This document shows positions 14,832-64,000 of a stretch of 64,000 bases of DNA, one piece after another. Position 1 is the first letter of the stretch, and every line of letters starts with the position of its first letter. The stretch spans positions 124,001 through 188,000 of the forward strand of contig NZ_AUJU01000005.1 of NCBI RefSeq assembly GCF_000424385.1, read 5' to 3'. A model generated the notes under the pieces. That model was not told the DNA's origin, searched no databases, and saw only the letters and a program-made list of their open reading frames with translations. The stretch is from Butyrivibrio sp. LC3010. Its GTDB lineage: Bacteria; Bacillota; Clostridia; Lachnospirales; Lachnospiraceae. A program made the position numbers and the translations under genes.

Positions 14832-14850
14832 GGGGGATTTTAATATTCTT

Positions 14851-16890: not shown

Positions 16891-16914
16891 ATAGAGTGTA
16901 AAAACAAATACAAA

Positions 16915-17041: not shown

Positions 17042-17047
17042 TATAAT

Positions 17048-40147: not shown

Positions 40148-41116
40148 ATGGTAATAACCACTAATGACACTAGAAAATTTATCGAAGATTTTGAGTGCCC
40201 TCTTTATATATATGGAGCAGGAAGAATTGGATATAGAGTTGCGTGGTTTTTAATAAAATGTGGGATTGAAGTAAATGGTTTTTTGGATCGAAATATAGAG
40301 GTTGATTCAGAAAAAAAACGAAGTATTATGGTTGAGGAGATTTTGTTACCTATTGAATCACCAACGTTTCTGCAAACTCTGAATCAACATGTTCGTGTAA
40401 TTTCTGCAATAGCTGATCCAGAGAAAGTAATTAATTCTATTTTTGAACTATATTCTAATTCGGTCAACAGCTCAAATATTATCCTGCTCACTCCCTATAA
40501 TAATGATTTTATACATGGTGATAAGAGAATAGATTTCAATACGATGCTATCATATTTTAGAGCAAAGCTTGTACGAAAAGAATTACCTTCTATTCTTTCA
40601 AACAGTTGTAATGCTGGAATGATTTATAACATGTTAGGTGAAAGGGTGATATTTAAATCACCAACTATAAATACGCATATTGGACCAAAGGATTTTATTA
40701 AAATTTGTAAAGAACCACGAAAATATCTATCGAAAGACATTAGTTTTTCTCATTATGGATTATATAACGGGCAAAAGACAATAATTGGAAGGATCGATGA
40801 TGTATTTGTATATTTTCTTCATGGGGATGACGAGAATCAGGAATATCAAAGAGCTTTGAAAAGATGGAACAGACTAAGGAAAGCTGTTGATTATGACAAT
40901 TTAGCATTTGTTATGGAAGAGACTTATGAGAGAGAGCCCATTACATACAAAGAAGCAAAAGACTATTGTGAAATTAAAAATAAGCATCTTCTTTTACTAC
41001 GAACCCGAATGTTTGGGGAGTTAAATAATACTATTTGTATCAACCATAACAACTTTAGAGAAAGGGGGATTGTAGTAGAAGAGTGGTTTGATTTATTGGG
41101 GTGGATCAATGAATAA
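40148..41116 (+). CDS. DUF1919 protein with N-terminal Rossmann-like domain
   Basis: Residues ~17-110 form a Rossmann-like unit (PLYIYGAGRIGYRVAWFLI, then EVNGFLDRN). The rest matches DUF1919, a family from capsule and exopolysaccharide loci: SNSCNAGMIYNMLG, PTINTHIGPKDFIKIC and RALKRWNRLRKAVDYDNLAF. DUF1919 is of unknown activity. It is the first of 13 genes here with the same kind of Rossmann unit. It lies 3 bases after the carrier protein gene. Confidence 0.72.
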   Translation: MVITTNDTRKFIEDFECPLYIYGAGRIGYRVAWFLIKCGIEVNGFLDRNIEVDSEKKRSIMVEEILLPIESPTFLQTLNQHVRVISAIADPEKVINSIFELYSNSVNSSNIILLTPYNNDFIHGDKRIDFNTMLSYFRAKLVRKELPSILSNSCNAGMIYNMLGERVIFKSPTINTHIGPKDFIKICKEPRKYLSKDISFSHYGLYNGQKTIIGRIDDVFVYFLHGDDENQEYQRALKRWNRLRKAVDYDNLAFVMEETYEREPITYKEAKDYCEIKNKHLLLLRTRMFGELNNTICINHNNFRERGIVVEEWFDLLGWINE

Positions 41117-41296
41117 TATGATAAAATGTGTTGGCTTTTTACATGAACTAGAGCCAAGAGAATGTGTATATGGCTACGATGCGTGAATAGGCACATAATG
41201 TCAAGCTACTTTTGGGTCAATTCCAAGATTCTTGGTATCTAATATGAGCGAGATTTAGTTGACTTTGAGTTGAGAAAATATCTAAGGAAGAGTAAC
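41117..41296 (+). other. gap with small open frame, possible gene remnant
   Basis: This 180-base gap contains a 22-codon frame from ATG 41118 (MIKCVGFLHELEPRECVYGY...) that stops at 41186. It has no good ribosome site and may be the stub of a deleted glycan gene. Confidence 0.3.
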
Positions 41297-42304
41297 ATGG
41301 CAGAATATAAACAGTGGAGAAATGAAGATAGAACTTTTTTGAAGGATGTTATACCGTTGGATACTCCATACAATCTAAAGGTCGAGGTGTCTTCGCTGTG
41401 TAATGCCCGCTGTGTTTATTGTGCACATTCCAAGCCAAATCACGGTGTATATGAAGGAAACATGTCCTTGGAACTAATGGACAGAATCCTCTCAGACTCC
41501 AAAGAATTCCCACGTAAATATAAGGTGATGGAAATGTTCTCCTTTGGAGAATCCATGTGTAATCCAAACCTAGAACAGATGATTTCAATGGCAAAAGAAG
41601 CTGAAGTTGCTGATAAAATCAACTTCACTACGAATGGTCTTCTCATAAATAAAGAGAGAGCAGATAAACTGATTGCCTCAGGTGTTGACATAATCCGTAT
41701 TTCACTTCAGGGTCTTGATGCACCGGCTTATAAAAAGACTTGTGGGATCAAAGTAGACTTTGACCGTTTTGTAGATAATCTCAAGTATCTTTTTGATAAT
41801 CGTGGCAATATATCGGTACGAATGAAAATAGCTGATATAGCTATTGATGACGTTCCAGATGGCGAAAAGAAGTTTAATGAAATTTTTGGACCAATCGCTG
41901 ACAGCATTTTTATTGAGAAGATAATTCCTATGTATGCGGATATTGATTACAACACAATTGATGGCGAAATCTATGAAAAGGCCATCAATGGTCGAGAAAA
42001 TGTCAAGCAAAAAGAAATACATACAGTATGCAATCGACCATTCTATAGATTCAGAGTTGCAGCTGACGGCAAAGTAACAGCAGCGTGTTGTGACATTCCC
42101 AACGATTTCTATTTTGGAAATATTTATGAAGATTCACTTGTGAACATTTGGAATAGTGAAAAGAGAAAACAACTTCTAAGGATGCAACTGGAAGGCAAGC
42201 GGTTTATGCATCCTATTTGTAAGCAATGCACTATTCCGAATGATATTACTACAGAGGCGGATATACTGGATCCTTGGGCGAAAGAGTTGTTAAAAAAATT
42301 GTAA
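41297..42304 (+). CDS. radical SAM/SPASM protein (1 of 4)
   Basis: This 335-residue radical SAM enzyme has the cluster motif CNARCVYC (CX3CX2C at 35, 39 and 42) and a SPASM-type C-terminus (CNRPFYRFRVAADGKVTAAC; PICKQCTIP) that would bind further iron-sulfur clusters. The ATG at 41297 follows AAGGAAGAG; the upstream TTG at 41270 is less likely. Unlike the next three radical SAM proteins it has no N-terminal Rossmann unit. Substrate is unknown. Confidence 0.82.
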   Translation: MAEYKQWRNEDRTFLKDVIPLDTPYNLKVEVSSLCNARCVYCAHSKPNHGVYEGNMSLELMDRILSDSKEFPRKYKVMEMFSFGESMCNPNLEQMISMAKEAEVADKINFTTNGLLINKERADKLIASGVDIIRISLQGLDAPAYKKTCGIKVDFDRFVDNLKYLFDNRGNISVRMKIADIAIDDVPDGEKKFNEIFGPIADSIFIEKIIPMYADIDYNTIDGEIYEKAINGRENVKQKEIHTVCNRPFYRFRVAADGKVTAACCDIPNDFYFGNIYEDSLVNIWNSEKRKQLLRMQLEGKRFMHPICKQCTIPNDITTEADILDPWAKELLKKL

Positions 42305-42313
42305 GGGATTTAA

Positions 42314-44455
42314 GTGGAACAAGCATATAAACACGAAATAGAACAATTTAAAACAGCATTTTCCTGGTTAAAAGATAAACGCATAGTATTATATGGAATA
42401 GGGAGATATACAGCGACGATTTTATCTGAACTCAGTAACCAATTTGATTTTGTTGGTCTATTGGATAAAGATCCAGAGAATATTGGAAAAGAGATTAATG
42501 GCATAAAAGTTGTAGATTTGAAATATGCAGAGAAAAATGCGGACTTAATTATTATTAATACTCAGGAAATGTATTGGAATACAATTCTTAGGCGCATTTC
42601 AGGATCCCAAATTCCAATATACTTTAGGAGTGGTCAGCAAGCGATTAGCATAGACTCTTCAATTCGTGATGCTGACCCTTACTGGGAATTAGATGGTGAT
42701 GGTATATACCAAAAGGCATTAAACTATGATGTGGTTTCATTTGATATTTTTGATACTATCATAATGAGGAAGACACTTTTGCCTAAAGATGTTTTTTTAA
42801 TACTTGAGAAACGGGCGTATGAAGAAAAAGGTATTTATGGAGAAATTGCCAAGACGAGAACTGAGATAAATGCTATATGTATAAATGAGCTATTGAACTT
42901 TGACGAAATTTATGATTTGGTGCAAGAAAGGCTGAATTTATCTAACGACGATAAGGAATATCTAAAAAAACTTGAGATGTCTATTGAAAAAGATATTTCA
43001 ATACCTCGCCTTGCTATTGTTGAACTGGTAAATAGAATTGCAAAAGATAAAGATGTATTCCTGATTAGTGATATGTATTTGCCTATAGAATTTATTAAAG
43101 AATTATTGACGAATGCAGGAGTAGACTCTAATTTAAATATCTGGATTTCATGTGAAAAGAAGGCTACCAAGAAGCAAGGGGATTTGTGGGAACTATACAA
43201 AAAGACTCTTGGGAAGAAAAAGGCTTTGCATATTGGCGACAATGAACAAAGTGATGTTGCTATTCCCTCACAACTGGGTATTGATAGTATCCATATATTA
43301 AGTGCATTTCAACTTTGGGAAAAATCTACCATGTCAAGAGTACTATCAAAAATTTTGACAAAGGATGATTTTTGCGCTGGATTAATAGCTGCTAGGCTGT
43401 TTGAAAATCCATTTGCACTCAAGCAAAATAGCGGACATGTTGTGATTGGTGATAGCAAAACGCTTGGTTATGTATACTTTGGCTCTTTAATCTACGTTTT
43501 CTTGAAGTGGATCATGGATCAAACTAAAGAAAAAGGAGGCAGACCATTCTTTTTGGCAAGAGATGGTTATTGGCTAAAGAGAGACTATGACTACATGCAG
43601 AATCTGTATTCAAAGGGACTTGAGAAGGCAAACAATTCTTTATCATCAGATTATTTGGCAATTTCGAGACGAATTGTATTAGTTTCTGCGATAGATGAAC
43701 CGGATGGCTGGGAAAGATTAATTTCTTTTTCATTTATAGGTGATTTTAAATATTTTTGCAGAACAAGGTTGAGTTATGAACTTCCTGTCGATGATGAACA
43801 TGCACATGAAAATATAACAATGCCGATTGATTATAAAAAAGTTAATGGGTGGTTAGAATCTTATAAAAAAGATATAATAGCTGATCTTGAAAAACAGAAG
43901 AAAAGGTATATGAAATACTTAGAGAATAAAAAGTTATCTGAGCAGGATTTTGTTATTGATCTGTGGTTCAACGGTAATAATCAGCTATATCTTTCAAGGA
44001 CTATAAAGAAGCATTTGACAGGTCTTTATTTAGTTGCAAATTTAAGTCCTGAAAATAGTTGTGCTATTAATAATACTTTAATCCCATGTTTTCAAGAAGA
44101 AGATGATCCATTGGCACTAAAATCTTCTATACGTAAACAGGCTGCTTTTGTTGAATCTATCCTAACAGCGCCATATGGAATGATTTCATCTGTTAATGAT
44201 GATGGGGCGTATATATGTGAACCTAAAATGGAGAATCAAAAAAGGTGGGTAATCAGAGTAAACATCAACGAAGGTATAAAGTCCTTTTTTAGGGATTATA
44301 TCGATTTATGGGATGGAGAAATCACAACACAATTTGTGAATGATTTTTGGGATGAAATATGTGATAGAGGTATAGAACTTTCTGATAATCTGAAAAAGGA
44401 TTTTTTCTGCGACAATGTATTGGTGAAAAGACAGGAAACAAGTGTCTTTGAATAA
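42314..44455 (+). CDS. large HAD-superfamily protein with N-terminal Rossmann-like domain
   Basis: The 713-residue protein begins with the shared unit (RIVLYGIGRYTATILSEL; GLLDKDPENIGKEINGI). Residues ~138-350 are a HAD domain with DIFDT (144-148), LISDMYLP and HIGDNEQSDV. The remaining ~350 residues (RPFFLARDGYWLKRDYDYM; AISRRIVLVSA) are of the type found after HAD domains in polysaccharide clusters, and their activity is unknown. It starts with GTG 42314 after AAGGGA. Confidence 0.7.
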   Translation: MEQAYKHEIEQFKTAFSWLKDKRIVLYGIGRYTATILSELSNQFDFVGLLDKDPENIGKEINGIKVVDLKYAEKNADLIIINTQEMYWNTILRRISGSQIPIYFRSGQQAISIDSSIRDADPYWELDGDGIYQKALNYDVVSFDIFDTIIMRKTLLPKDVFLILEKRAYEEKGIYGEIAKTRTEINAICINELLNFDEIYDLVQERLNLSNDDKEYLKKLEMSIEKDISIPRLAIVELVNRIAKDKDVFLISDMYLPIEFIKELLTNAGVDSNLNIWISCEKKATKKQGDLWELYKKTLGKKKALHIGDNEQSDVAIPSQLGIDSIHILSAFQLWEKSTMSRVLSKILTKDDFCAGLIAARLFENPFALKQNSGHVVIGDSKTLGYVYFGSLIYVFLKWIMDQTKEKGGRPFFLARDGYWLKRDYDYMQNLYSKGLEKANNSLSSDYLAISRRIVLVSAIDEPDGWERLISFSFIGDFKYFCRTRLSYELPVDDEHAHENITMPIDYKKVNGWLESYKKDIIADLEKQKKRYMKYLENKKLSEQDFVIDLWFNGNNQLYLSRTIKKHLTGLYLVANLSPENSCAINNTLIPCFQEEDDPLALKSSIRKQAAFVESILTAPYGMISSVNDDGAYICEPKMENQKRWVIRVNINEGIKSFFRDYIDLWDGEITTQFVNDFWDEICDRGIELSDNLKKDFFCDNVLVKRQETSVFE

Positions 44456-44477
44456 CAATTAGGTATGATGAGATAAA

Positions 44478-45893: not shown

Positions 45894-45945
45894 ATGCAAC
45901 ATTAATAAAAAATATCCTATATACAGAGAATTTGAAAGTGAATTT

Positions 45946-47085: not shown

Positions 47086-47100
47086 GAAAGGATTTTTTAA

Positions 47101-49355: not shown

Positions 49356-49398
49356 TGGCAATGTACAACTAGTTTATTGAAGAGAATAGGGACTAATC

Positions 49399-49779
49399 TT
49401 GCTAATAATATATGGAGCGGGAAAACAAGGGTTACGAATATTATATATACTTGAAGACTATGGTGTTAAAGTGGATGGCTTTCTGGATCGCGACAAAAGA
49501 AAAGTAGGGGAAACTATAGATTCAGTAACCTGTTTTTCTTTAGAATGCGAAAAAGTAAAGAACGAGAAGGAATTGAAAATCATTATTTCTCCCAAAAAAA
49601 ATAGTGGTATATATCGATTTTTGAAAACAATTTTTCCTAAAAGTAAAATCTTATATTGGGAAGACATAAAAGGTGATTATCCTTTGAAGATTTCGAAGGA
49701 AGTAGATTTAAATAAAATAAGAACCACATATTTTGATATTAGGAAAAAAATGTATGAGGATACTAGAAATAAACAATAG
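49399..49779 (+). CDS. free-standing Rossmann-like domain protein
   Basis: The 126-residue protein is only the shared unit (LIIYGAGKQGLRILYILEDY; VDGFLDRDKRKVGETIDSV) plus a short tail. It starts with TTG and overlaps the following glycosyltransferase gene by 26 bases, so it may act as a separate subunit of it. The start of the next gene lies within its last codons. Confidence 0.65.
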   Translation: MLIIYGAGKQGLRILYILEDYGVKVDGFLDRDKRKVGETIDSVTCFSLECEKVKNEKELKIIISPKKNSGIYRFLKTIFPKSKILYWEDIKGDYPLKISKEVDLNKIRTTYFDIRKKMYEDTRNKQ

Positions 49780-50941
49780 TGATCTTGTCGGGCGAGCATT
49801 TAATGGCTATGATCTACACTGTAAGTTGAACAAAACAGGACATGAAGCGTATATGTTAGTTGTAGACAAATACAGTAATGATGCTACAGTCGAAAGTATG
49901 GATATTTCATTATTTGAAAGAGAAAGAATACGATTTATTGAAGAGAAGCAGTGTTTAAATAATATTTATTATCCGTATGCAGCTTCACTAGTAAAGAATG
50001 AACATTACATCAATTCAGATATATTACACTACCATTTTACCTATCATCAGATGTTTTCATTATACGATTATCAAGAAATAATGGATGCCAGAGCTGTATG
50101 GACGATTCACGACTTATGGATGATTACTGGTAATTGTATAAATCCACCTAAAAGGTGCAAAAAATGGCAAACTCAATGCTTCAATTGTGATAATTATGAT
50201 AATGAGTATTTTCCGATGAAGGAAGATAACACTAAAACTATGTGGACTATAAAAAAAGAATGTTTGGGAAAAATTAATCCACATATCATTGTGGCTTCAG
50301 AATATATGAAGCGTTGCTTAAATAGTAGTCCAATTACAAAGCATTTTTCAAAAATACATATCATTCCTTTTGGTATAGATCTAGAACTATATCAAAAAAA
50401 GGAGAAAAAGAACTCAAAAGAAATAACCATAGGCTTTCGTGCAGAGGATGAGTATATAAAAGGATGTGACCTTCTTTATGATGCACTACGCAAGGTTTGT
50501 ACAACTAGTACTATAAAGCTAAGCTGCGTTGGCAATGGAAAAGTTCCTAATGATATAAAGAATAAATTTGAATTAACCGAACATGGATGGATGTTTAATA
50601 AAGAAGATATGGTATCGTTTTATAAGCGTTGTGACATATTTATAATACCGTCAAGGCAAGAGACGTTCTGTCTAATGGCGATAGAAGCGATGGCGGCTGG
50701 ATGTTTGGTTGTATGTTTCAAAGATACAATAGTTGAAGAAGTGAGTGGAGCACCACAGAATGCGATTGCTGTGGACTATGAAAATACGGACGCTCTAGCA
50801 GTACAAATTGAATATTTAGTTGATAATAAGAATTATAGAGAAGAAATTATAGGTAATAGCCGAAGTTTTATCAAGAGATACAACATTGAAAACTATGTAG
50901 AGGCACATATAGAACTATTTGAAAATGTGATAACTAATTAA
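49754..50941 (+). CDS. GT4-type glycosyltransferase
   Basis: This ~395-residue GT-B protein has LHYHFTYHQMFSLYDY, VWTIHDLWMITGNCINP and a C-terminal GT4 half (GFRAEDEYIKGCDLL; IPSRQETFCLMAIEAMAAG). The HDxWxxTGxC element and the Cys-rich loop (CKKWQTQCFNC) resemble WcaC-type transferases in capsule and colanic acid loci. ATG 49754 follows AGGA and gives the clean start MRILEIN. It has no Rossmann unit of its own. Confidence 0.82.
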   Translation: MRILEINNSDLVGRAFNGYDLHCKLNKTGHEAYMLVVDKYSNDATVESMDISLFERERIRFIEEKQCLNNIYYPYAASLVKNEHYINSDILHYHFTYHQMFSLYDYQEIMDARAVWTIHDLWMITGNCINPPKRCKKWQTQCFNCDNYDNEYFPMKEDNTKTMWTIKKECLGKINPHIIVASEYMKRCLNSSPITKHFSKIHIIPFGIDLELYQKKEKKNSKEITIGFRAEDEYIKGCDLLYDALRKVCTTSTIKLSCVGNGKVPNDIKNKFELTEHGWMFNKEDMVSFYKRCDIFIIPSRQETFCLMAIEAMAAGCLVVCFKDTIVEEVSGAPQNAIAVDYENTDALAVQIEYLVDNKNYREEIIGNSRSFIKRYNIENYVEAHIELFENVITN

Positions 50942-50977
50942 GTAAGATATTATGTAGTAGAGCATTTTAATAGTTGC

Positions 50978-51088: not shown

Positions 51089-51147
51089 AAGAGGGATTAA
51101 CTCATTTTTAAAATGTACTAATTAGATGCTAACACTATATAGAAAGA

Positions 51148-52350: not shown

Positions 52351-52450
52351 AAATACAAAGAGTGTAATTTGTGTAATAAAAAGATAAATAACTGAAAATA
52401 TACTATAAATCAGTTTATTAGGCTACTAGCATGTGTTATGGAGGCTTTGG

Positions 52451-53857
52451 GTGAAGAGAGCATTCCCGGTACATAAAATTGAACAAAATTCTAAAGTAAT
52501 AATGTATGGTGCAGGTAAAAATGGAGAATACTTATTTTTGCAAAATCATAATCTTCAGTGGTGCCAGATTATTGATGTTTTAGATCAATCTCCTAAACCA
52601 GATTTTCCAGTCCATGTTAGTGATATTGATTACTCCTTTAATGATGTTGAATATGATTATGTATTAGTATCTGTAACAAATAATAAAATAAAAAAAGAAA
52701 TAATAGATTATTTAAAAGAAAAAGGAGTAGAAGAAAAAAAAATTGTAGCTGACTTAAATTGTTATTATCCTGAAGAATTTGGGGATAAGGTTTTTTTTAG
52801 AAACAAATATATAGAAAATCCTGAGAGGCCGTTAAAGATAGGTTTTCATCCAGGAGGAGTAATGGGGGATAATATTATTTCTTTGCGATTATATAAAGAA
52901 ATATCAAGAATTTCAGGAAAATGTATAATAGATGTATTTACAGTATTTAGAGAATTTCCAGAACATATTTTTAATGGACAAAAGAATCTTGGTCAGATAA
53001 TATATCAAAATCCAAGGAAATGTGACTTATCAGGTTACGACTTGGTTATACAGTCATACTATGAGCCGGCTATTATTTCGTGTAATATAGTTAGTCTTAG
53101 AATGAAATCAAAGTTATTAGCGGAAGCTGTAATGAAATTATTCATTTACCAGATTACAGATTTTTTTTATTGCTATCCTGCTGAGTATATGAATAGAATT
53201 CAACTGGAACGTTCCAGGCTTAAAGGACTTTCATGTTACACGCTACTAGGAGTAAGCGGAGCGTTTGATATCAATGATAATTCAATAGACTTTCCTCTTG
53301 ATATAAACTATGAGCATAATTACAGAATGCTAGGGCTTGGCACAAACTATGTAACATTTAACTATGGAGCAAGTGATACAACTGGAACGGGTAAGATACA
53401 GACTAAAGTATGGCCTTCAGATTATTATAAAACGCTCATACGAATGATAAAGCGTAAGTACCCCAATATTAGAATAATTCAGATTGGCTCAAAAGATGTT
53501 ACAGCAATAGAAGGCGCAGATGATTATTTATTTGGATTAGATCTTGAAATAATAAAGTTTGTACTAAAAAACTCAGTATGTCATTTTGACTGTGAGGGTG
53601 GTTTGGTACATATGGCTTCGCAGTTAGGAACAAAGTGTTTTGTTTTATTTGGTCCAACCCCGGAAGCTTTTTTTGGATATAAGGAAAATACAAATATTAC
53701 TTCAGATATCTGTCGGGAGTGTTTCGGTGTCATTCCAGATTGGTATACAAGGTGCTACAAGTATCCTGCACCGGTTTGTATGAAATCCATACATCCAGAA
53801 CGAGTTTTTGATGCATTTTCTAGATGGTATGGGAAAGAAAAAAATAGTCAAGGCTAA
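52451..53857 (+). CDS. GT9/heptosyltransferase-like protein with N-terminal Rossmann-like domain
   Basis: The N-terminal ~100 residues are the shared unit (KVIMYGAGKNGEYLFLQN). The remaining ~370 have the GT9 look of ADP-heptose transferases: FHPGGVMGDNIISLRLYKEI, FNYGASDTTG, and CHFDCEGGLVHMASQLGTK followed by CFVLFGPTP. GTG 52451 follows GGAGG by six bases; the upstream GTG 52433 is less likely. It abuts hldE, which fits an ADP-heptose donor. Confidence 0.75.
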   Translation: MKRAFPVHKIEQNSKVIMYGAGKNGEYLFLQNHNLQWCQIIDVLDQSPKPDFPVHVSDIDYSFNDVEYDYVLVSVTNNKIKKEIIDYLKEKGVEEKKIVADLNCYYPEEFGDKVFFRNKYIENPERPLKIGFHPGGVMGDNIISLRLYKEISRISGKCIIDVFTVFREFPEHIFNGQKNLGQIIYQNPRKCDLSGYDLVIQSYYEPAIISCNIVSLRMKSKLLAEAVMKLFIYQITDFFYCYPAEYMNRIQLERSRLKGLSCYTLLGVSGAFDINDNSIDFPLDINYEHNYRMLGLGTNYVTFNYGASDTTGTGKIQTKVWPSDYYKTLIRMIKRKYPNIRIIQIGSKDVTAIEGADDYLFGLDLEIIKFVLKNSVCHFDCEGGLVHMASQLGTKCFVLFGPTPEAFFGYKENTNITSDICRECFGVIPDWYTRCYKYPAPVCMKSIHPERVFDAFSRWYGKEKNSQG

Positions 53858-53882
53858 AAATGAGGGATATCTTCAGATACAT

Positions 53883-55277
53883 ATGAAAAATATATTAGTT
53901 ATTGGCGATGTTATGCTTGATATATATTGTGAAGGAAAAGTAAGCCGTATTTCGCCGGAAGCTCCAGTACCAGTATTCTTGAAAAGGGGAGAACATTCAG
54001 TTCCAGGAGGTGCTGCAAATGTAGCGGTGAATATTTCAGCAGCAGGACAGAATGCTTCTATTGTTTCGGTATGTGGTAGAGACGTGGCTGGCGAAAAACT
54101 TGATAAACAATTGAGAATGCATAATATAGATACATCTCTTATGTGTCAGTATTTAGATAGTACTATAACAAAGACAAGATTTATTGCTGATAATCATCAG
54201 CAACTTCTTAGAATGGATATAGAAAAAAAAGAGGAGTTATCTATTGATAAAGCAGATGAATTCATTTGCAAACTAAAAAAAGAGATATCACGTTTTGATG
54301 TAATTATTCTGTCTGACTATTTGAAAGGTTTACTTACGTTCTATTTTACACAACAGATTATTACTTTAGCGAAAGAAAACAATATTCCAGTTTTGGTAGA
54401 TGCTAAAGATCCTGACGTTAAGAAGTATGAAGGAGCATATTTAATAAAGCCAAATAAAAAAGAACTACATGAATTAACTGGAGAAACAGTGGATTCTATT
54501 GGACAAGTTGTGAATGCATCAAGGAAGCTTCTTAATAAATGCAAGTGCAAATATGTACTGACAACATGTGGTGCAGATGGTATGGTTATGGCCTCTTCAA
54601 AAAAGGAATGGATAATATCTTCTGTAGCTAAAGAAATATATGATGTTTCAGGTGCAGGGGATACTTCAATAGCATACTTGGCTGTTGGGATAGCTAATGG
54701 AATGGAAATATCTGATGCTGTAAGACTAGCAAATGAAGCTGCTGGCATTCAGGTTGGAAAGATGGGAACAGCACCAGTTTTTATTAGCGAAATAAGGTGT
54801 GATAAAAAGAGGCAAACGATATTCCAAGTAAATCAAATCCAAGAATTAAAAGAATGTATAAAGAATGGTAAAGTCGTATTTACAAATGGATGCTTTGATA
54901 TTCTTCATGTTGGTCATATTAGATACTTGGAGAAAGCATCAGAACTAGGGGATTATTTAATTGTCGGACTTAATAGTGATTCATCTATTAAACGTTTGAA
55001 AGGAAAGGACAGGCCAATAAATCCACAACAAGATCGTGCTGAAATGCTAAGTGCTTTAGGATTTGTTGATTATATTATTTTTTTTGATGATGATACACCA
55101 TACAATCTTATTGATGAATTGTGTCCTGATATTTTGGTCAAGGGTGGTGATTATAGAATAGAAGACATAGTAGGAGCTGATCTAGTTGAGGAAAGAGGTG
55201 GAGAGGTAGTTATAATACCATTTGTAGAGGGCTATTCTACTACTAATTTAATTGAAAAAATATCGGAGGGGAATTAG
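53883..55277 (+). CDS. hldE: bifunctional heptose-7-phosphate kinase/adenylyltransferase (HldE)
   Basis: HldE phosphorylates D-glycero-manno-heptose 7-phosphate and later adds AMP. The N-terminal PfkB domain (~1-310) has VPGGAANVAVNISAAGQ and catalytic SGAGDTSIAYLA. The C-terminal nucleotidyltransferase (~330-465) has FTNGCFDILHVGHIRYLEKA and LVKGGDY. An upstream in-frame ATG at 53808 would add 25 atypical residues inside the previous gene, so 53883 is used. It shares one base with hldD. The middle phosphatase step (GmhB) is not obviously encoded here. Confidence 0.93.
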   Translation: MKNILVIGDVMLDIYCEGKVSRISPEAPVPVFLKRGEHSVPGGAANVAVNISAAGQNASIVSVCGRDVAGEKLDKQLRMHNIDTSLMCQYLDSTITKTRFIADNHQQLLRMDIEKKEELSIDKADEFICKLKKEISRFDVIILSDYLKGLLTFYFTQQIITLAKENNIPVLVDAKDPDVKKYEGAYLIKPNKKELHELTGETVDSIGQVVNASRKLLNKCKCKYVLTTCGADGMVMASSKKEWIISSVAKEIYDVSGAGDTSIAYLAVGIANGMEISDAVRLANEAAGIQVGKMGTAPVFISEIRCDKKRQTIFQVNQIQELKECIKNGKVVFTNGCFDILHVGHIRYLEKASELGDYLIVGLNSDSSIKRLKGKDRPINPQQDRAEMLSALGFVDYIIFFDDDTPYNLIDELCPDILVKGGDYRIEDIVGADLVEERGGEVVIIPFVEGYSTTNLIEKISEGN

Positions 55278-56248
55278 TGAGTTATTTAGTTACGGGAGGT
55301 GCAGGCTTCATAGGGAGTAATGTAGTTGAAGCATTAAATCACAGAGGTATAGAAGATGTTATTATAGTAGATAATATTTCATCTACCGAAAAATGGAAAA
55401 ACATATGTGGGAAGAAATATACGACCTATATACATAAGAAGGATCTTTGGCGTAGGATTGATGAACTAAATAATATAGATGCGATAATTCATATGGGTGC
55501 ATGTTCTTCAACTACAGAAAGAGATTTTGATTATTTATGGAATAATAATTTTGAATATACTAAGTCATTATGGAATCTTTGCGCTGAGCGAAAGATTCCA
55601 TTTATTTATGCCAGTTCAGCTGCAACTTATGGTGATGGAAGAAATGGTTTTGATGATGAAACGGATATTGATTTTTTTAGACCATTAAATGGTTATGGAT
55701 ACTCAAAACAATTATTTGATTTGTGGGTTAAGTATCAAGCAAAAACTTTTCCAAGTCAGCATGTTGGATTAAAGTTTTTTAATGTATATGGACCTGGAGA
55801 GTATTTTAAAGGCTCTATGGCAAGTATGGCTTTTCATGGATATATTCAGGCTAAGCAAGATGGAGAGATTCGTCTATTTAAATCATACAATGATGAATAT
55901 GCAGATGGAGGACAGTTAAGGGATTTTGTTTATGTTAAGGATGTATGTGATGTGATTTTGTGGTTTTTGGATCATCCAGATAAAAGTGGACTTTTTAATG
56001 TTGGAACTGGAAAAGCAGATAGTTTTGAAAATCTCGCAAAGGCTGTATTTAAGGCAATAAATAAAACACCTAATATACGTTATATAGAAATGCCGGATTA
56101 TTTGAAAGGAAAATATCAATATTATACGCAGGCAAATATAAATAAACTCCGTAAACTAGGATGCAATATTGATTTCAAATCTGTTAATTATGGGGTGGAT
56201 GATTATATTAAGAATTATTTAGCAAAGGAAAGAATGCTAGTTGTCTGA
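55277..56248 (+). CDS. hldD: ADP-L-glycero-D-manno-heptose-6-epimerase (HldD)
   Basis: HldD converts ADP-D,D-heptose to ADP-L,D-heptose. The 323-residue SDR protein has the NAD loop GGAGFIGSN (7-15), SSAATYG and the catalytic YGYSK (Tyr-x-x-x-Lys type), and the HldD-specific MGACSSTTERDFDYLW and RDFVYVKDVCDV. The GTG start overlaps the hldE stop (TAGTG). In Gram-negative bacteria it feeds lipopolysaccharide; in this Firmicute it must feed another glycan. Confidence 0.93.
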   Translation: MSYLVTGGAGFIGSNVVEALNHRGIEDVIIVDNISSTEKWKNICGKKYTTYIHKKDLWRRIDELNNIDAIIHMGACSSTTERDFDYLWNNNFEYTKSLWNLCAERKIPFIYASSAATYGDGRNGFDDETDIDFFRPLNGYGYSKQLFDLWVKYQAKTFPSQHVGLKFFNVYGPGEYFKGSMASMAFHGYIQAKQDGEIRLFKSYNDEYADGGQLRDFVYVKDVCDVILWFLDHPDKSGLFNVGTGKADSFENLAKAVFKAINKTPNIRYIEMPDYLKGKYQYYTQANINKLRKLGCNIDFKSVNYGVDDYIKNYLAKERMLVV

Positions 56249-56324
56249 ATAGGGGAAAAATAGGAAAGTGCTGTTTGCAAAAAATAAATATTGACATATT
56301 AAATAAAAATCAGAGAGGGTTTAT

Positions 56325-57557
56325 ATGCAACAGAATATACTAGAGTCCATTTTTTCAAAGTACAAAAAAGTATATATTTTCGGAAAAGGAATAAAACAAC
56401 GTAGATTAGCAGATTTAGCTATCGAGCATGGATGTATTTTTTTAGGTTTTGTAGAATCAGATGAATATTATAAAGAGGAAAATGAAACAATACGGTTATC
56501 ACAAATGGCACAGTTTTTGAAAGCTGCTGATATTGGAGTAGTTGTGAGTATATCGAATATACACTATACCAATATCAAGAAACAGATTGCATTAAATGAT
56601 TTACCATATGGGAATTTTTATTTTATTTCAAATTCAGAAAGAAGAATTATATGGGGAGAGAGCGATAGGAAAGAATACTTTGAAAACTATTCTATTCAGA
56701 AAAGGCAATTTGATGAAGTAAATAGTGCTCGTAGAGATAATTGTATTAATGTTTTTTGCCATCAGCATATGGGAGATACATTTATCTTAATGGGATTAAA
56801 AAAGCTTATTGAAAAGAAATATGGAAGCCCAGTCCACTATATTTTAAAAAAAGGCCATGATTGTATAGCTGAGTTATGTGGTATAAAAGAATATTCAACC
56901 ATTGATTACTATGGTTTTTTGGCTGAAAACGAACAAATGGGACTGAATAAAAGAGAAATAGATCAAAAAAATGGTGGAATTATAGAGCAACTTTTTTCAA
57001 GGATACCATATCAGGGAATAGTTTCAGTTTCATCTTATGCACGGAGAAACAGGGAGTTTGCAAGTGAAACCGAGACTTTAGTTGATTTTAGGGCCGGATC
57101 ATTTGGTATTAATTGTAATAAATTAGAACCAAAGACGTATTTGATTGAACCTACCGAAAATCTAATAAAAATTGTTGATAGTTTAGGTGGATGGGACAAA
57201 ATTGTTCTTATAGCACCTGAGGCTAGGTCTAATCCACAGGTATCTCATGATTATTGGTCTATTATAGTAGATGGCTTGAGGAAGCAGGGATTGACAGTAG
57301 TATGCAATGCTATTGAAGAAGCGAATCAATTACCACAGACAAAAACGATAGATGTTTCTTTGAGGGATTTAATTGCTTTAGGGCAAAGATGCCATAGTAT
57401 TTATTCATCAAGGAGTGGACTATGTGATTGTTTGTCATCAAGAGGTAAGAGCCTACATGTATATTATCCTAAAGAAATAGAGGAAAAGTTCGACTATTAT
57501 TCAATTAACCATAATTTTTACTTAAATGAAGAAGTAGATGAAATTATATGTAGGTAG
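56325..57557 (+). CDS. GT9-like glycosyltransferase with N-terminal Rossmann-like domain
   Basis: The 410-residue protein has a variant of the shared unit (KVYIFGKGIKQRRLADLAI; GFVESDEYYKE) with GKG in place of GAG. It continues with a heptosyltransferase-like half (INVFCHQHMGDTFILMGLKK; CHSIYSSRSGLCDCLSSRGK). Position between hldD and gmhA supports use of ADP-heptose; the acceptor is unknown. It follows a 76-base AT-rich gap. Confidence 0.68.
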   Translation: MQQNILESIFSKYKKVYIFGKGIKQRRLADLAIEHGCIFLGFVESDEYYKEENETIRLSQMAQFLKAADIGVVVSISNIHYTNIKKQIALNDLPYGNFYFISNSERRIIWGESDRKEYFENYSIQKRQFDEVNSARRDNCINVFCHQHMGDTFILMGLKKLIEKKYGSPVHYILKKGHDCIAELCGIKEYSTIDYYGFLAENEQMGLNKREIDQKNGGIIEQLFSRIPYQGIVSVSSYARRNREFASETETLVDFRAGSFGINCNKLEPKTYLIEPTENLIKIVDSLGGWDKIVLIAPEARSNPQVSHDYWSIIVDGLRKQGLTVVCNAIEEANQLPQTKTIDVSLRDLIALGQRCHSIYSSRSGLCDCLSSRGKSLHVYYPKEIEEKFDYYSINHNFYLNEEVDEIICR

Positions 57558-57667
57558 GTATTTGCTTATATTTATATATTTTTTTTATTAGTTTCTTTAT
57601 TATTGGTAGATAAACGAGAAAGAACAAGTCATAAACGGTTATTAGTTCTTTGTTAAAGGAATACTAA

Positions 57668-58264
57668 ATGAATGATTTGGAACTCATACACAATCGAATT
57701 TTGGATAGTATAGGAATAAGACAGCAAATAATCTGTGATAAATGGCTTGCAGATAGTATTAGTCAAGCATCTTCCATGATTGTGGATAGTCTTAAATCTG
57801 GAGGGAGAATTATTATTTGTGGTAATGGAGGCTCCGCAGCAGATGCAATGCATTTTGCTGGTGAAATAGTAGGTCGTTTTCAGATGGAGCGAGATCCGTG
57901 GCCCGCTATTGCTTTAAATGGAGATGCTGTCGCTATGTCAGCTATTGCAAATGACTATAACTTTGAAGATGTCTTTGCTAGACAGGTTAAAGGACATGTA
58001 AAAAAAGGGGATGTATTTGTTGGCATAAGCACAAGTGGGAATTCTGAAAATGTTTATCGTGCAGTAAAGACAGCTAAGGAAAAAGAGGCTGGCACAATAG
58101 CGCTTCTTGGAAAAGATGGAGGAAAAATAAAGGGTGAAGCTAATTATGAAATTATTATTCCAAGTAACAATACAGCAAGAATTCAAGAGTGCCATATAAT
58201 GGTTATACATTTGATTTGTGAATTAGTAGAAAATAAAATGACGAATAATTTAAGTGAACAATGA
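57668..58264 (+). CDS. gmhA: sedoheptulose-7-phosphate isomerase (GmhA)
   Basis: GmhA converts sedoheptulose 7-phosphate to D-glycero-manno-heptose 7-phosphate, the first step to ADP-heptose. The 198-residue SIS-domain protein has CGNGGSAADAMHFAGEIVGR, NDYNFEDVFARQV and GISTSGNSENVY, and a C-terminal QECHIMVIHLIC with the expected His residues. It completes a gmhA-hldE-hldD set in one cluster. Confidence 0.93.
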   Translation: MNDLELIHNRILDSIGIRQQIICDKWLADSISQASSMIVDSLKSGGRIIICGNGGSAADAMHFAGEIVGRFQMERDPWPAIALNGDAVAMSAIANDYNFEDVFARQVKGHVKKGDVFVGISTSGNSENVYRAVKTAKEKEAGTIALLGKDGGKIKGEANYEIIIPSNNTARIQECHIMVIHLICELVENKMTNNLSEQ

Positions 58265-58277
58265 AAAGGGGGAAAAA

Positions 58278-59399: not shown

Positions 59400-59481
59400 T
59401 TATTTATGTTATGACAGTTTTACGGAGTAGATTATATAAAGAAGAATAAGAATATGTTTGATTTCTTTAAGGAGACCAGTT

Positions 59482-61995
59482 ATGAATATTTCATCTAGGT
59501 GTATGGCTTGTGGCGCTTGTGAGAATATTTGTCCCCAAGATGCTATAAGAATGATTATTGATGATAACGGGTATTATAAACCGTTAATAGATGAAGAAAA
59601 ATGTATTAAGTGTGGAAAATGCTCAAAAGTTTGTCCTGAACAGAATCTTTTGGAAAATCATAATGAAGAAACACCTATGTGCTATGCTATTTGGGCAAGA
59701 AATGAAATAAGAAGAAAAAGCTCCTCTGGTGGAGCTTTTTCTATTTTGGCTGAGAAAATATTATCAATGGGGGGAAAAATTTATGGATGTGCCTTTGGTA
59801 GTGATTTTGTGCCTATACATATTGGCATTGATAATGTTGAAGATTTGGGTAAACTTCGTAAAAGTAAGTATGTACAAAGCTATGTCGGAAAGACCTATAG
59901 GGAGATAGAACAAGAGTTGAAGACAGGAAGAGTAGTACTGTTTTCCGGAATGCCTTGTCAGGTTGTGGCATTAAGGAATTACCTAAAATATGAGTATGAT
60001 AATTTATACACGGTTGATCTTGTTTGTAGTGGAAATAATCCTGTAGGGGTATGGAAAGGATACTTAAATGAGTTGGAAAAAAGCTATGGAAAGATATCTA
60101 AAATAGACTTCAGAGCAAAAAAATATGGATGGAGATGTGGTGATGTATTATACACTTTAGATAGTGGCAGAGAAATCGATAGTTATCGAGATCCATATAT
60201 GATTTCATTTTTAAGAGGAATGTTTAGGGAAGAAGCATGCGCTGATTGTAAATATGCTGGATTTCCAAGGGCAGCTGATATTACTATAGGAGATTTTTGG
60301 AATATTGAAAAGAAAGAGCGTGCATTAAATGATAATAAAGGAACTAGCCTTGTCATTACTAATTCTGGAAAAGGGAAAAACTTATTTGAGCAGGTAAAAG
60401 AAAAATTTTGTTTATGTAAAGAAGTAGATTTTGATTTTACAAAACATAGCAATATGTTTTATAGGAAACGTAGAACATACAATGAACAGGATACTTTTTT
60501 CACTTATTATAGGAATGGCTTGCCTATAAATGAATCAATTGATAGAGCGAATAAAAGAAAATATGATATTTGTGTATGTGGAGCTTGGGTAGCGAGAAAT
60601 TATGGCGCGCATTTAACACAATATGCACTATATCGTCATTTAACAGATTTGGGATATGATGTATTGATGGTGGATAGACGAAATATGCCAACGCTGTTTC
60701 GAAAAAATCCATATAAAGCTAGAGCAGCTGGAAAAAATTATTATGATCTGATTTCTATGAAGGAATTAAATGATATATGCGATATATTTATTGTAGGGTC
60801 AGATCAACTCTGGAGTTGGAGCGTATTTAATGATTCAGTCTATGTTTATACATTACCTTATGTGGATTCAGATAAGCTAAAAATCTCTTATGCTACTTCA
60901 TTTGGACGTAGAGATGCTACATTTTTGCCTGAAGAAAAGAGATATATGAAATATATGCTTGGAAGATTTCAAAAAATATCAGTCAGAGAAGATTTTGGAG
61001 TTGATATATGTAACAATCTATTTGATGTTGATGCTGAGCAGGTTTTGGATCCGGTTTTTCTTCCTTCAAAAAGTGTATATTATGACATGATAAAGTACTC
61101 CGAAAAGAATCTTCCTGAGAATTATATTTTTTGTTATATTATATGGCCAAATGATGAGCTAATTAAATTAATTAATGGGATTTCAGAGGAAAAAGGATGG
61201 GATGTTGTATTTGTTGGGGATATTGGAAGACTTGATATAGTAAATTGGACTGTAAAAACGGAGGATGATGTTTTTGTGGAGGATTGGTTGAAATTATTGC
61301 AAGGATGTAAACTTGTTATTTCAGATTCATTTCATGCTTATTGTTTTTCTGTTATATTCCAAAAAAATATACTGAGCATTTCAAAGGATCAAGCATGCTT
61401 GGATAGGATGTCCTCTTTAGCAAATATGTTGCATTTAGAAAAACCATTGACATACCCTGAATTAATGGGGTTATCTACTGAAGATGTGTTGAACTATGTT
61501 AACAGGGATTATGAGCATATAAATAATATACTTGATAAAGTGATTAGCGCATCTAAGAATTGGTTGATCGATGCAATTGGACAAAAAGTAAATAGTTCCT
61601 GTATTGATAGTTGGTATGATTCATTTGGGCTAGAATATATACAACAGAGAGCCTCTTTAATTAGGACATCTAAGATGTTTTTAGATGGAATAAAGAACAA
61701 TTATGATAGTATTGTTACTTTTGGTTTGGGAATGTGTTTTGATAATGAATTTAATAGGATTAGTAATTATATAAATATCGATTATGTATGTGATAATGAT
61801 AGTACTAAGTGGGGGAAACTCTTTTCTTCCCAAAAGAAAATATGTATTGCTCCGGAAAAGTTGAAAGAACTTAATAAGCCTTATGTAATCATAACAATGT
61901 GGAATCCTGAATTTATAGATAATGTAAAAAGGCAATTGGTGGAGTTGGGGATAACAGAATTTATTAGTATTGAAGATTTTATAGCTAATGTTTAG
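59482..61995 (+). CDS. ferredoxin/F420H2-dehydrogenase-type, pyruvyltransferase-like and Rossmann fusion
   Basis: The 837-residue protein joins three parts. Residues ~1-330 have two 4Fe-4S motifs (CMACGACENICP, CIKCGKCSKVCP) and a coenzyme F420 hydrogenase beta-subunit-like domain (SGMPCQVVALRNYL). Residues ~360-700 are a polysaccharide pyruvyltransferase (WcaK-like) domain (YGAHLTQYALYRHL, DQLWSW, ISDSFHAYCFSVIF). The last ~90 are the shared Rossmann-like unit (VTFGLGMCFDNEFNRI; IDYVCDNDSTKWG). ATG 59482 follows AAGGAGA. Such ferredoxin-pyruvyltransferase pairs occur in glycan loci; the redox role is unclear. Confidence 0.78.
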   Translation: MNISSRCMACGACENICPQDAIRMIIDDNGYYKPLIDEEKCIKCGKCSKVCPEQNLLENHNEETPMCYAIWARNEIRRKSSSGGAFSILAEKILSMGGKIYGCAFGSDFVPIHIGIDNVEDLGKLRKSKYVQSYVGKTYREIEQELKTGRVVLFSGMPCQVVALRNYLKYEYDNLYTVDLVCSGNNPVGVWKGYLNELEKSYGKISKIDFRAKKYGWRCGDVLYTLDSGREIDSYRDPYMISFLRGMFREEACADCKYAGFPRAADITIGDFWNIEKKERALNDNKGTSLVITNSGKGKNLFEQVKEKFCLCKEVDFDFTKHSNMFYRKRRTYNEQDTFFTYYRNGLPINESIDRANKRKYDICVCGAWVARNYGAHLTQYALYRHLTDLGYDVLMVDRRNMPTLFRKNPYKARAAGKNYYDLISMKELNDICDIFIVGSDQLWSWSVFNDSVYVYTLPYVDSDKLKISYATSFGRRDATFLPEEKRYMKYMLGRFQKISVREDFGVDICNNLFDVDAEQVLDPVFLPSKSVYYDMIKYSEKNLPENYIFCYIIWPNDELIKLINGISEEKGWDVVFVGDIGRLDIVNWTVKTEDDVFVEDWLKLLQGCKLVISDSFHAYCFSVIFQKNILSISKDQACLDRMSSLANMLHLEKPLTYPELMGLSTEDVLNYVNRDYEHINNILDKVISASKNWLIDAIGQKVNSSCIDSWYDSFGLEYIQQRASLIRTSKMFLDGIKNNYDSIVTFGLGMCFDNEFNRISNYINIDYVCDNDSTKWGKLFSSQKKICIAPEKLKELNKPYVIITMWNPEFIDNVKRQLVELGITEFISIEDFIANV

Positions 61996-62016
61996 CACAA
62001 ATTATAGGAAAAATCG

Positions 62017-64000
62017 ATGACAAATTCTAACAGACTTACATATAAAAAAGAATATTCGGTAGAAGAACTCCAAATAGGATTTGATTACTTTATTACTTGT
62101 ATGACAGATTATTCTATCTGTGATGAAGACAGAATTCTAATAATGTCGGATGAGAGCGAAAGTCTAAATTATTATGTTCTCCATTACCTGTGTAAAGTAC
62201 CTATAGCAGGTAGAGGGAGAATTTTTATTTTTGCGCCTCTAGATACGGAAAATTATATCAGAGAGAATGCCACTTCTTATTGTTTGTTTATTCCATGTGA
62301 AAGAGACATGATTGGTATATTATGCAGGCTTTATACTATTTGTTTGTACAAAGGCAGTGTTATGGTCAGTTCATTGACAATGGCATCCGATGTTGATATG
62401 GGTAAAATTATTGATGATTCAGAATTGGAAATCAGAGATATTGCTGCATTATCAGTTTTAAGACTTCGCAGAACCCCGCCTGAAGTAGAGATAAAAAAAT
62501 ATGATTTGGAAGATAAAACTCAATATTTTCATTATGCTAAGAAAAATGATGATTATTTTTATCAAACGGCTATTTATGGTAGAAAAGAAGAATATTACGA
62601 TATATGCGCTAGCATGATTTCTGGAAATGATCATATAAAAAAAGATGATAAATTAGTGATGTTTGGAGTTATGAAAACATCCTTGGAAATAAAAAAAAGG
62701 CTATATGAATATAATTTTGTAGCATTTATAGACAATGATATAAAGAAGCAAGGAACTATGGTGGAGGGACTGCCTGTTATAGCCCCTGAAAAAATTAAAG
62801 ATGAATATGGGGATGACATTAAGATAATAGTGTCTTCTAAATATTCAAGAGAAATGTGTTCACAACTTGAAAAAATAGGATATCGTGTTAATGAAAATAT
62901 TTTTTTAGCGTATGTCAAATCATGTGTGAAATATAAAAATGCTATATCATCAACTCCGGAGGAAATTTTTAGTGCCGGAGAGAAAGTATTCATAGATTTG
63001 AGAAACAAATTCCCAAATGAACTAATTATGTCTTTGCCATACTCTGGCACAGGTGATGCTTACTTAGCAGGAATGTACATGGAAGAAATGGTAAAAGAAC
63101 ATAATATCGATAAATTCGTAATAACCGTTACATCTAATTCCTGTAAAAAGGTACTAAAGTTATTTGGATTAGATTCATATATTCTTAATATGGATAATTC
63201 AAGAAAACTTCTTAATTATGCTAGAATTGTTGGATTTAAAAATGCTAATTATATCGTTTTGAATGATTGCATTGATCATGAAGATGTACTTCAGGTAAGG
63301 GGCTGTAGAGATATTGATTTGCATACCATGTTCCAGCGCTTTGTTTTTAGAACTAGTAAGAAAATTACAGTACCTAAGATTTCTAATAATAATTCAGATG
63401 AAATTTTTGTTAAGTATGGACTTAGAAAAGGTAGAACAGTTTTGTTGTCTCCATATGCGACGAGCGTTGCTAGTATAACTGATAATACTTGGTATCGGAT
63501 TGTCAAATGTTTGAAAAATAAAGGGTTTGATGTATGTACCAATATTGGAAGCGATAAAGAAGAGGCAATTCCTGGTACAGTAGGTGTTTTTTTGCCTTAT
63601 GATATTGTAATCGATTTTGTTAATAAGGCGGGTTTCTTTATTGGCTTAAGAAGTGGGCTTTGTGACATAGTTTCAACTTCCAGTGCATGGAAGTTTATTT
63701 TTTACCCCACTTGGAAGCGCGAAGTAGGTGATATAGGTAATCATCCATATAGATATTATAGCTTGAGAAGAATGGAATTCTCAAAAAAAAATCTCATAGA
63801 ATTGCAGTTTGATGAAGGTAATGATGCTTTTATCTCTAATGCTATAGATCGTAGACTTGATGAAATATTATCCGAAAGGAAACATAATGATATAGGCATT
63901 GTTATTTGCAATTATAATGGTGGAAACGACACAGTAAATTGTGTTAATCATATTTTGCAATCAGACTGTGATAATTATGATGTGATCGTAGTAGATAATG
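62017..64000 (+). CDS. multidomain glycosyltransferase, cut by window end
   Basis: The frame opens at ATG 62017, with AGGAAAA upstream, and is still open at the right edge, giving 661 visible residues. Residues ~1-200 are unrecognised. Residues ~213-305 are the shared unit (LVMFGVMKTSLEIKKRLYEY; FIDNDIKKQGTMVEG). Residues ~330-590 look GT9-like (LPYSGTGDAYLAGMYME; FFIGLRSGLCDIVSTS). From ~626 a GT2 domain begins (IGIVICNYNGGNDTVN, then VIVVDN). It would be a chain of transferases in one polypeptide. Confidence 0.7.
   Translation, partial: MTNSNRLTYKKEYSVEELQIGFDYFITCMTDYSICDEDRILIMSDESESLNYYVLHYLCKVPIAGRGRIFIFAPLDTENYIRENATSYCLFIPCERDMIGILCRLYTICLYKGSVMVSSLTMASDVDMGKIIDDSELEIRDIAALSVLRLRRTPPEVEIKKYDLEDKTQYFHYAKKNDDYFYQTAIYGRKEEYYDICASMISGNDHIKKDDKLVMFGVMKTSLEIKKRLYEYNFVAFIDNDIKKQGTMVEGLPVIAPEKIKDEYGDDIKIIVSSKYSREMCSQLEKIGYRVNENIFLAYVKSCVKYKNAISSTPEEIFSAGEKVFIDLRNKFPNELIMSLPYSGTGDAYLAGMYMEEMVKEHNIDKFVITVTSNSCKKVLKLFGLDSYILNMDNSRKLLNYARIVGFKNANYIVLNDCIDHEDVLQVRGCRDIDLHTMFQRFVFRTSKKITVPKISNNNSDEIFVKYGLRKGRTVLLSPYATSVASITDNTWYRIVKCLKNKGFDVCTNIGSDKEEAIPGTVGVFLPYDIVIDFVNKAGFFIGLRSGLCDIVSTSSAWKFIFYPTWKREVGDIGNHPYRYYSLRRMEFSKKNLIELQFDEGNDAFISNAIDRRLDEILSERKHNDIGIVICNYNGGNDTVNCVNHILQSDCDNYDVIVVDN

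Follow-up and report, generated by a model that had tools for sequence, protein, structure and literature searches.

In the 4.59 Mb genome of Butyrivibrio sp. LC3010, we analysed a stretch of 64,000 nucleotides (C5:124001-188000, hereafter the window) in which a Rossmann-like unit of about 90 residues is joined to glycan enzymes of unrelated families. A first-pass annotation had placed this unit in 13 genes, at the N-terminus, at the C-terminus, internally or alone, and we recovered every one of them in its reported place, above all decoys, with a leave-one-out hidden Markov model (HMM), in which each protein is scored by a profile made without that protein. The units are listed below with their partners and leave-one-out scores (GT, glycosyltransferase).

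40190..40498, plus strand: unit in gene 40148, N-terminal, partner DUF1919, 15.7 bits
42371..42643, plus strand: unit in gene 42314, N-terminal, partner HAD-like by eye only, 36.0 bits
44502..44789, plus strand: unit in gene 44478, N-terminal, partner GT4, structure predicted, 51.3 bits
45952..46230, plus strand: unit in gene 45946, N-terminal, partner radical SAM/SPASM, 48.6 bits
47128..47394, plus strand: unit in gene 47101, N-terminal, partner radical SAM, 51.3 bits
48264..48533, plus strand: unit in gene 48264, N-terminal, partner radical SAM, 18.4 bits
49399..49683, plus strand: unit alone, in a 126-residue protein (gene 49399-49779), 43.9 bits
52033..52323, plus strand: unit in gene 51148, C-terminal, partner GT2, 31.9 bits
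52481..52768, plus strand: unit in gene 52433/52451, N-terminal, partner GT9-like below the cut-off, 13.5 bits
56355..56642, plus strand: unit in gene 56325, N-terminal, partner GT9-like only through likeness to the middle part of 62017; weakest unit, structure predicted, 13.1 bits
58344..58628, plus strand: unit in gene 58254/58278, N-terminal, partner FkbM methyltransferase, 22.5 bits
61696..61992, plus strand: unit in gene 59458/59482, C-terminal, partner FrhB and polysaccharide pyruvyl transferase, 38.3 bits
62641..62922, plus strand: unit in gene 62017, internal, partner GT2 by Pfam, middle part like 56325, 51.2 bits
L004:5477-7690, past the window: cytidylyltransferase protein with unit
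L004:17877-18959 and L004:8804-9814, past the window: two closely related LicD proteins with unit

Searching the whole genome with the unit profile gave 20 places at E<=0.01, 17 of which lay within about 41 kb (C5:164193-204777), so that 17 of the 31 open reading frames (ORFs) of at least 100 amino acids in C5:164-205 kb carry the unit. The earlier count of 13 thus held for the genes it named and fell short for the locus, since four more units follow past the window end, in the cytidylyltransferase protein, the two LicD proteins and a second FkbM protein; gene 62017 (1065 amino acids) itself extends past that end. Three of the earlier gene starts (52451, 58278 and 59482) fall inside ORFs that open slightly earlier, at 52433, 58254 and 59458. 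The three matches elsewhere in the genome were weaker (E 5.6e-8 to 3.3e-4) and lay in ORFs of Rex and FlaA1/CapD size, as judged from size only. All 17 units outscored every one of 3,400 shuffled decoy sequences, from the top scores of 51.3 bits (44478, 47101) down to three weak ones (15.7 for 40148, 13.5 for 52433 and 13.1 for 56325). Pairwise identity was low (13-31% to the first row of the alignment of the 17 units), with a GxG loop and an Asp after strand 2 in common. These scores indicate that the 13 segments belong to one domain family and not to unrelated ones, and, with the genome-wide clustering, they rule out a chance run of Rossmann motifs. The units are also not halves of ordinary NAD oxidoreductases, because the window's own proteins of that kind barely score on the unit profile: the epimerase/SDR ORF 55256/55277 reached 2.6 bits, and the Gfo/Idh-type genes were not among the matches. 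One border ORF (E 0.01, upstream stretch of C5) was set aside by eye as an unrelated phosphodiesterase. The second LicD copy, whose match is limited to the end of the LicD profile (28 bits), has kept its unit, in keeping with repeated duplication within the island.

We then considered the fold. The model of the 44478 unit had its strands and helices in Rossmann order (predicted local distance difference test, pLDDT, 90; predicted template modelling score, pTM, 0.81), and that of 56325, the weakest unit, for which the other 16 served as the alignment, was of similar fold (pLDDT 82, pTM 0.72), as expected from the earlier proposal of a common fold. The best solved structure for 44478 was 2G6T, residues 1-102 (Z 13.4, root-mean-square deviation 2.1, 93 residues aligned), followed by 3NKL, succinyl-CoA synthetase alpha, Rex and the FkbM structure 2PY6 (Z 9.1-9.6); 56325 matched 3NKL, Rex, WbaP 8T53 and 2G6T at Z 9.1-9.3. 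A profile of 73 diverse units found much the same relatives among the sequences of solved proteins, namely 3NKL (3e-10), Rex (5e-10), 2G6T (7.4e-8), WbaP (4.4e-5) and VioB (2.5e-4).

The domain does not appear to be wholly unnamed, given that the Pfam family C2185-like_N (PF22674) matched 12 of the 73 units at E<=0.001 (best 2.2e-8), ahead of PglD_N (6) and CoA_binding (3). PF22674 is the nearest curated family, and the Clostridium acetobutylicum structure 2G6T the best structural match, but the units of the window all fall under its cut-off of 27 bits: its best match in the window's genome was 25.3 bits, with none over the cut-off, while the units of relatives, to judge from the best E-value of 2.2e-8, probably exceed it. 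We take 2G6T to be the structure that gave PF22674 its name and a carrier of DUF1919, like gene 40148; a sequence search of the Protein Data Bank (PDB) with 40148 returned nothing at E<=0.01. For CoA_binding (PF02629, cut-off 22.3), the trimmed 42314 unit reached 22.8 bits, the full-length protein 18.1, and the other units seen were below. No Pfam family exceeded its cut-off for the unit part of the full-length window proteins, and the NCBIfam matches were far under their cut-offs for the unit member shown. PF13727 (CoA_binding_3) was absent both from the 24 families that the 17 units hit at E<=1 and from the 7 that the 73 units hit at 0.001, a search in which the HMMER filters may drop weak matches.

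Several described domains are akin to the unit and differ from it in setting. WbaP and 3NKL, of the PF13727 type (large phosphoglycosyl transferases and PglF-like dehydratases, an assignment that we infer for 3NKL), resemble it in sequence, in fold and in being a soluble Rossmann-like accessory domain on glycan enzymes; however, according to the portion of PMC10942596 used here, PF13727-type domains adjoin a 4-helix membrane bundle, whereas the units are joined, within one locus, to soluble enzymes from many families. The likeness to the N-terminal domain of PglD-type enzymes, which the first-pass annotation had remarked on, was confirmed as weak matches to PglD_N in 9 of the 17 units (Pfam) and to NeuD/PglB/VioB in 13 of 17 (NCBIfam). 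PglD_N (PF17836; PglD, VioB, PerB) is matched in sequence by VioB (2.5e-4) and in structure by PerB (Z 8.3), but the unit proteins of the window have no acetyltransferase partner, and those units with bits shown are below the cut-off. The NAD(H)-binding domain of Rex is close in sequence (5e-10) and structure (Z 9.5), yet the window's unit proteins carry no DNA-binding family, and the third Gly of GxGxxG is present in only 77 of 149 units. The FkbM structure 2PY6 in the structure database already has such a domain.

The catalytic partners are unrelated to each other. Pfam bore out the DUF1919, GT4, three radical SAM, GT2, FkbM and polysaccharide pyruvyl transferase partners named earlier, in support of the reuse of one family on many enzymes of one pathway. 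The GT9 assignment held in part, 52433 being just under the cut-off (20.3 of 22 bits) and 56325 having no Pfam partner, and the HAD label of 42314 found no Pfam, NCBIfam or PDB sequence match and stands on motifs seen by eye. The unit is not a general feature of glycosyltransferases in this genome: 41 of the 43 GT2 and 17 of the 19 GT4 matches lie outside the locus and none of these overlaps a unit, while the only two GT2 matches that overlap unit proteins are both in the locus.

Across 197 units from 26 genomes, the unit was C-terminal in 92, N-terminal in 84, internal in 7 and alone in 14, with 63 partner classes besides the 14 stand-alone proteins, the classes being formed by single linkage, which may lump families. 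Whole-protein tallies in Butyrivibrio relatives added Gly_transf_sug, Caps_synth, DUF4422, polysaccharide deacetylase, TupA ATP-grasp and WbsX. Of 196 cases, 120 had the nearest unit on a different partner class and 76 on the same one, and in G243 two neighbouring genes have closely related units (75 bits), one N-terminal and one C-terminal. Given that the nearest units are often on other partner classes, the module seems to have moved between enzymes. Four short unit proteins of 165-170 amino acids, with the unit at about residues 71-160, alternate with other genes at L044:7732-12727 (G007).

To compare unit-bearing and unit-free genes, we used the islands of ten non-Butyrivibrio genomes, which supplied 52 of the 84 ORFs with a unit and 127 of the 169 without one; 8 ORFs were lost at piece borders. 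The 52 comprised GT2 (21), GT4 (6), radical SAM (6), methyltransferases (3 FkbM and others), pyruvyl transferase (2) and GT56 (2); the 127 comprised SDR (15), DegT (11), NTP-transferase (9-10), GT2 (13) and radical SAM (4). SDR, DegT and NTP-transferase together were found in 0 of the 52 vs up to 36 of the 127, counting their matches as different proteins (Fisher 9e-7; 9e-5 for SDR and DegT alone). Crude labels in all 15 genomes mapped (see below) gave a similar picture: none of 16 HldE/HldD-SDR/GmhA-like and none of 12 Maf-like ORFs had a unit, which was present in 28 of 40 GT2, 5 of 7 GT4, 8 of 13 radical SAM, 6 of 7 FkbM and 2 of 10 LicD ORFs. From domain content, the units appear to favour enzymes that add or modify glycan sugars and mostly not those that make sugar donors.

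Conservation was concentrated at a nucleotide-type site. Among 150 non-redundant units, 141 of which remain at a 50% identity cut, the loop glycines were present at G6 in 144 of 149, at G8 in 129 of 148 and at the third position as given above. An acid ended strand 2 in 166 of the 197 units, and the rest mostly have V and then S or T. This non-acidic flavour occurs in L043, L044, L053, L054 and others, where the ligand may differ; by genome, Asp-type and other units showed no difference (chi-square p 0.41). Mean identity between units was 0.2046 within genomes vs 0.2044 between genomes, a value reached by 34 of 300 permutations, so that this comparison gave no sign of genome-specific co-evolution.

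The glycan genes of the window lie downstream of a flagellar filament block on the same strand. Besides the unit genes, the locus contains the following features.

356..18529, plus strand: flagellar filament block, upstream, with FlgK, FlgL, two FliW-like, FlaG-like, FliD, FliS and three flagellin-type genes (FlgK, FliW, FlaG, FliD and FliS named by sight; FlgL and flagellins by Pfam Flagellin_N)
14851..16689, plus strand: MptE-like/Maf-type protein, putative flagellin glycosyltransferase, no unit (MptE-like 1.2e-33; Maf_flag10_N below the cut-off)
41270..42304, plus strand: radical SAM/SPASM island gene, fourth radical SAM of the locus, no unit (Pfam)
49733..50941, plus strand: GT4 island gene, no unit (Pfam)
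53808..58264, plus strand: putative ADP-heptose-type donor genes, no unit (HldE-like 53808, HldD-like 55277, GmhA-like 57668; names inferred from Pfam domain content)

The unit-carrying gene 56325 sits amid the unit-free ADP-heptose-type donor genes. Adjoining the ordinary flagellins, a flagellin-type gene at 12494-14413 has a protease insert (NCBIfam 'flagellinolysin', 277 bits vs a cut-off of 205). Two Gfo/Idh-type oxidoreductases at 28853-32129, one of them fused behind a cytidylyltransferase-like domain, precede the glycan genes and adjoin a NusG-like protein at 29861 (labels by sight). An AMP-binding adenylation enzyme and a formyltransferase at 36783-39157 suggest that the glycan is decorated with an amino-acyl or formyl group.

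We further studied whether this arrangement recurs, using maps of 15 genomes (this one and 14 others, from nine genera and seven families), the 14 being drawn from genomes with cluster and flagellin on one contig after their strands had already been seen. All 106 unit ORFs lay on the strand of the filament block, and in the 14 other genomes the unit genes were again downstream of it. Maf-like genes were seen in 8 of the 15 maps, this genome included, and not in the other 7. Glycan genes stood beside flagellin, FliW and FliD, which is how a flagellar glycosylation island is recognized, and the region of the window is almost certainly, on its gene content, such an island of a Butyrivibrio species. 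Sugar synthesis and transfer genes in or beside the flagellar locus are likewise found in the flagellar glycosylation islands of Clostridium and Geobacillus (PMC13317340, in part, for Clostridium); neither the main text of PMC13317340 nor the Geobacillus paper contains the word 'Rossmann'. The parts of PMC13317340 consulted list Butyrivibrio, not this species, among Gram-positives with flagellar O-glycosylation, citing Kalmokoff 2000.

In a sample of 299 genomes of the phylum, 12 had five or more matches among those listed, two of them Butyrivibrio, and in 9 of the other 10 a flagellin on the cluster's contig was no more than about 45 kb away; the chance of such linkage is 2e-11 to 3e-7 for p 0.05-0.15. 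Sixteen genomes of the phylum were chosen by eye among the matches listed, comprising all 10 of these non-Butyrivibrio genomes with five or more, together with 4 that had three or four and 2 that had two; 12 genomes of three matches were omitted. Among Butyrivibrio genomes with at least five matches (19 among the matches listed, G011 left out), 11 of 18 shared a contig and about 70 kb with flagellin, and G034, with four matches, was also linked. The presence of flagellin alone was dropped as evidence because 235 of the 299 genomes have one, and only position, strand and order were used.

The islands also differ from other glycan loci in their membrane proteins, counted with a hydropathy window. 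No polytopic protein (at least 4 predicted transmembrane segments) was found among the 306 ORFs of the mapped islands; five other stretches of the same genome, picked for their GT genes, gave 46 of 172 with at least 4 segments and 19 with at least 8. In this genome the unit thus appears to accompany a soluble pathway, the outcome one would expect if flagellin receives its sugar in the cytosol. Maf-dependent glycosylation of flagellin comes before export in Aeromonas, according to the portion of PMC4065374 considered.

Four points were missed by the first-pass annotation: the flagellin-glycosylation setting, the avoidance of donor-making enzymes (with exceptions), the recurrence in other families of the phylum and the partial coverage of the domain by a named Pfam family. 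Unrelated enzymes of the flagellar sugar coat seem, from their sequences, to carry one interchangeable domain of nucleotide-binding type in Butyrivibrio and in some distant members of the phylum. We propose, at slightly short of an even bet, that flagellin glycans are assembled by soluble enzymes with a shuffled module that holds a shared nucleotide-type ligand in its GxG/Asp site. The analysis shows that a mobile Rossmann-like module of about 90 residues has been plugged at either end, inside or as a stand-alone protein into enzymes that by family would add sugars to the glycan or modify it; on the proposed reading, the glycan would be built in the cytosol with no lipid carrier, either on flagellin or on a soluble precursor, and the GxG/Asp site would hold a ligand common to these enzymes. 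The likeliest ligand is a nucleotide-linked sugar or glycan intermediate, bound by its nucleotide end. In this way the module could hold unrelated enzymes to a single soluble intermediate, a task for which membrane pathways have a lipid. The retention of the GxG/Asp site, which is the nucleotide site of the fold, suggests such a ligand, and relatives in sequence that bind nucleotides (Rex, VioB, WbaP) support it. Holding is proposed by analogy with N-domains of the PglD/VioB/PerB type, which hold the nucleotide end of their ligand beside an acetyltransferase domain. In its boldest form, which we consider unlikely, the glycan would be built and decorated on a soluble nucleotide-linked intermediate that the acceptor-side enzymes hold through the module, as a soluble counterpart of the undecaprenyl carrier, and fusing the module to a new enzyme would recruit it, which would explain how islands diversify.

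A number of observations weigh against this proposal. At the site itself, 31 of the 197 units lack the acid, loops are degenerate in 62017 (FGVM), both LicD proteins (FGAADS) and 58254 (CCGD), and Gly and Asp at these positions also serve the fold. On the donor side, a unit is present in the locus's own cytidylyltransferase protein, in five similar ones from Butyrivibrio relatives and in one further protein with Citrate_ly_lig; on the acceptor side, only 2 of 10 LicD-like ORFs have one, and 13 unit-free island ORFs are GT2. Linkage to flagellar genes is incomplete: 7 of the 18 Butyrivibrio genomes with at least five of the matches listed have the cluster on another contig, 3 of 6 further phylum genomes chosen by eye were not linked (3 were), nor was G284, and in G005, linked and unmapped, flagellin lies on the cluster contig downstream of the units and not upstream. 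No unit ORF was found within 10 kb of 71 named flagellin loci, a flank that the window's own distance of 21.6 kb exceeds, and the islands were selected by having units. In addition, the comparison stretch C3b had only 1 of 14 ORFs with at least 4 transmembrane segments, and we know of no citable precedent for the assembly of a nucleotide-linked oligosaccharide.

One alternative, also unlikely in our view, is that the unit senses nucleotides and pairs enzymes, as has been proposed for the PF13727 domain of WbaP: it would bind released UMP, UDP or CMP, damp the enzyme when this by-product builds up and dimerise, the substrate not being held. The WbaP domain is a relative both by sequence (4.4e-5) and by structure (8T53, Z 9.2), and the units retain the GxG/Asp site that sensing would use. 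As reported in the parts of PMC10942596 consulted, this domain binds uridine nucleotides and provides most of the dimer contact, is stabilised in isolation by UMP, UDP and UTP, and UMP inhibits WbaP with a half-maximal inhibitory concentration (IC50) of 4.1 µM. However, units are also found on methyltransferases, radical SAM and pyruvyl enzymes, which by family release no nucleoside diphosphate or monophosphate, while most donor-making enzymes, the natural targets of feedback, have none. Given this distribution, a shared intermediate or a complex accounts for more than recognition of a free donor or simple feedback does.

The complex itself could be the function, with units recognizing each other, flagellin, FliS or Maf and assembling the enzymes, the old nucleotide site being only part of the fold, a possibility that we judge quite unlikely. 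The first-pass annotation had left the choice between a common ligand and docking; the retained GxG/Asp site favours the former, and since the units of one genome resemble each other no more closely than those of different genomes, a genome-specific docking surface is not supported. The most conserved positions are moreover the loop glycines and the Asp, with no obvious outer patch (judged from sequence, not coordinates), and none of the 12 Maf-like genes, expected to act on flagellin itself, has a unit. Yet a soluble pathway has no membrane to gather its enzymes, and the position-free fusions and stand-alone copies among the 197 units would suit a tether. Docking also has a precedent in flagellin glycosylation, the FlmG protein of Caulobacter, a flagellin glycosyltransferase whose accessory module binds flagellins (PMC7591256, in the portion consulted); that module is a TPR domain on one enzyme, whereas here a Rossmann-like domain is found on many. 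A passive module, of use only for folding, solubility or the formation of homodimers and spread by recombination because the island is a hypervariable hotspot, is very unlikely: flagellar glycosylation islands are described as recombination hotspots in the passages of PMC13317340 consulted and units do shuffle between partners, but the loop Gly and the Asp are kept at very low identity (141 of 150 units left at the 50% cut), which counts against it, as does the scarcity of units on donor-making enzymes from these islands.

The fold family is thus already known and partly named in Pfam, and what appears to be new is its use as a shared mark of the flagellin-glycan pathway; a search of the open-licence literature, covering titles and the openings of abstracts, gave no description of one module common to the enzymes of such a pathway. 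If the proposal of a ligand-holding module is true, a sequence tag would mark flagellin-glycan enzymes in Butyrivibrio and distant relatives, and one profile would pick the acceptor-side enzymes of an uncharacterised pathway from a genome. It also raises the question of how a soluble glycan pathway of many enzymes retains its intermediates in the absence of a lipid carrier, and a ligand found here would bear on the accessory domains of unsettled role in WbaP, PglF, FkbM 2PY6 and 2G6T.

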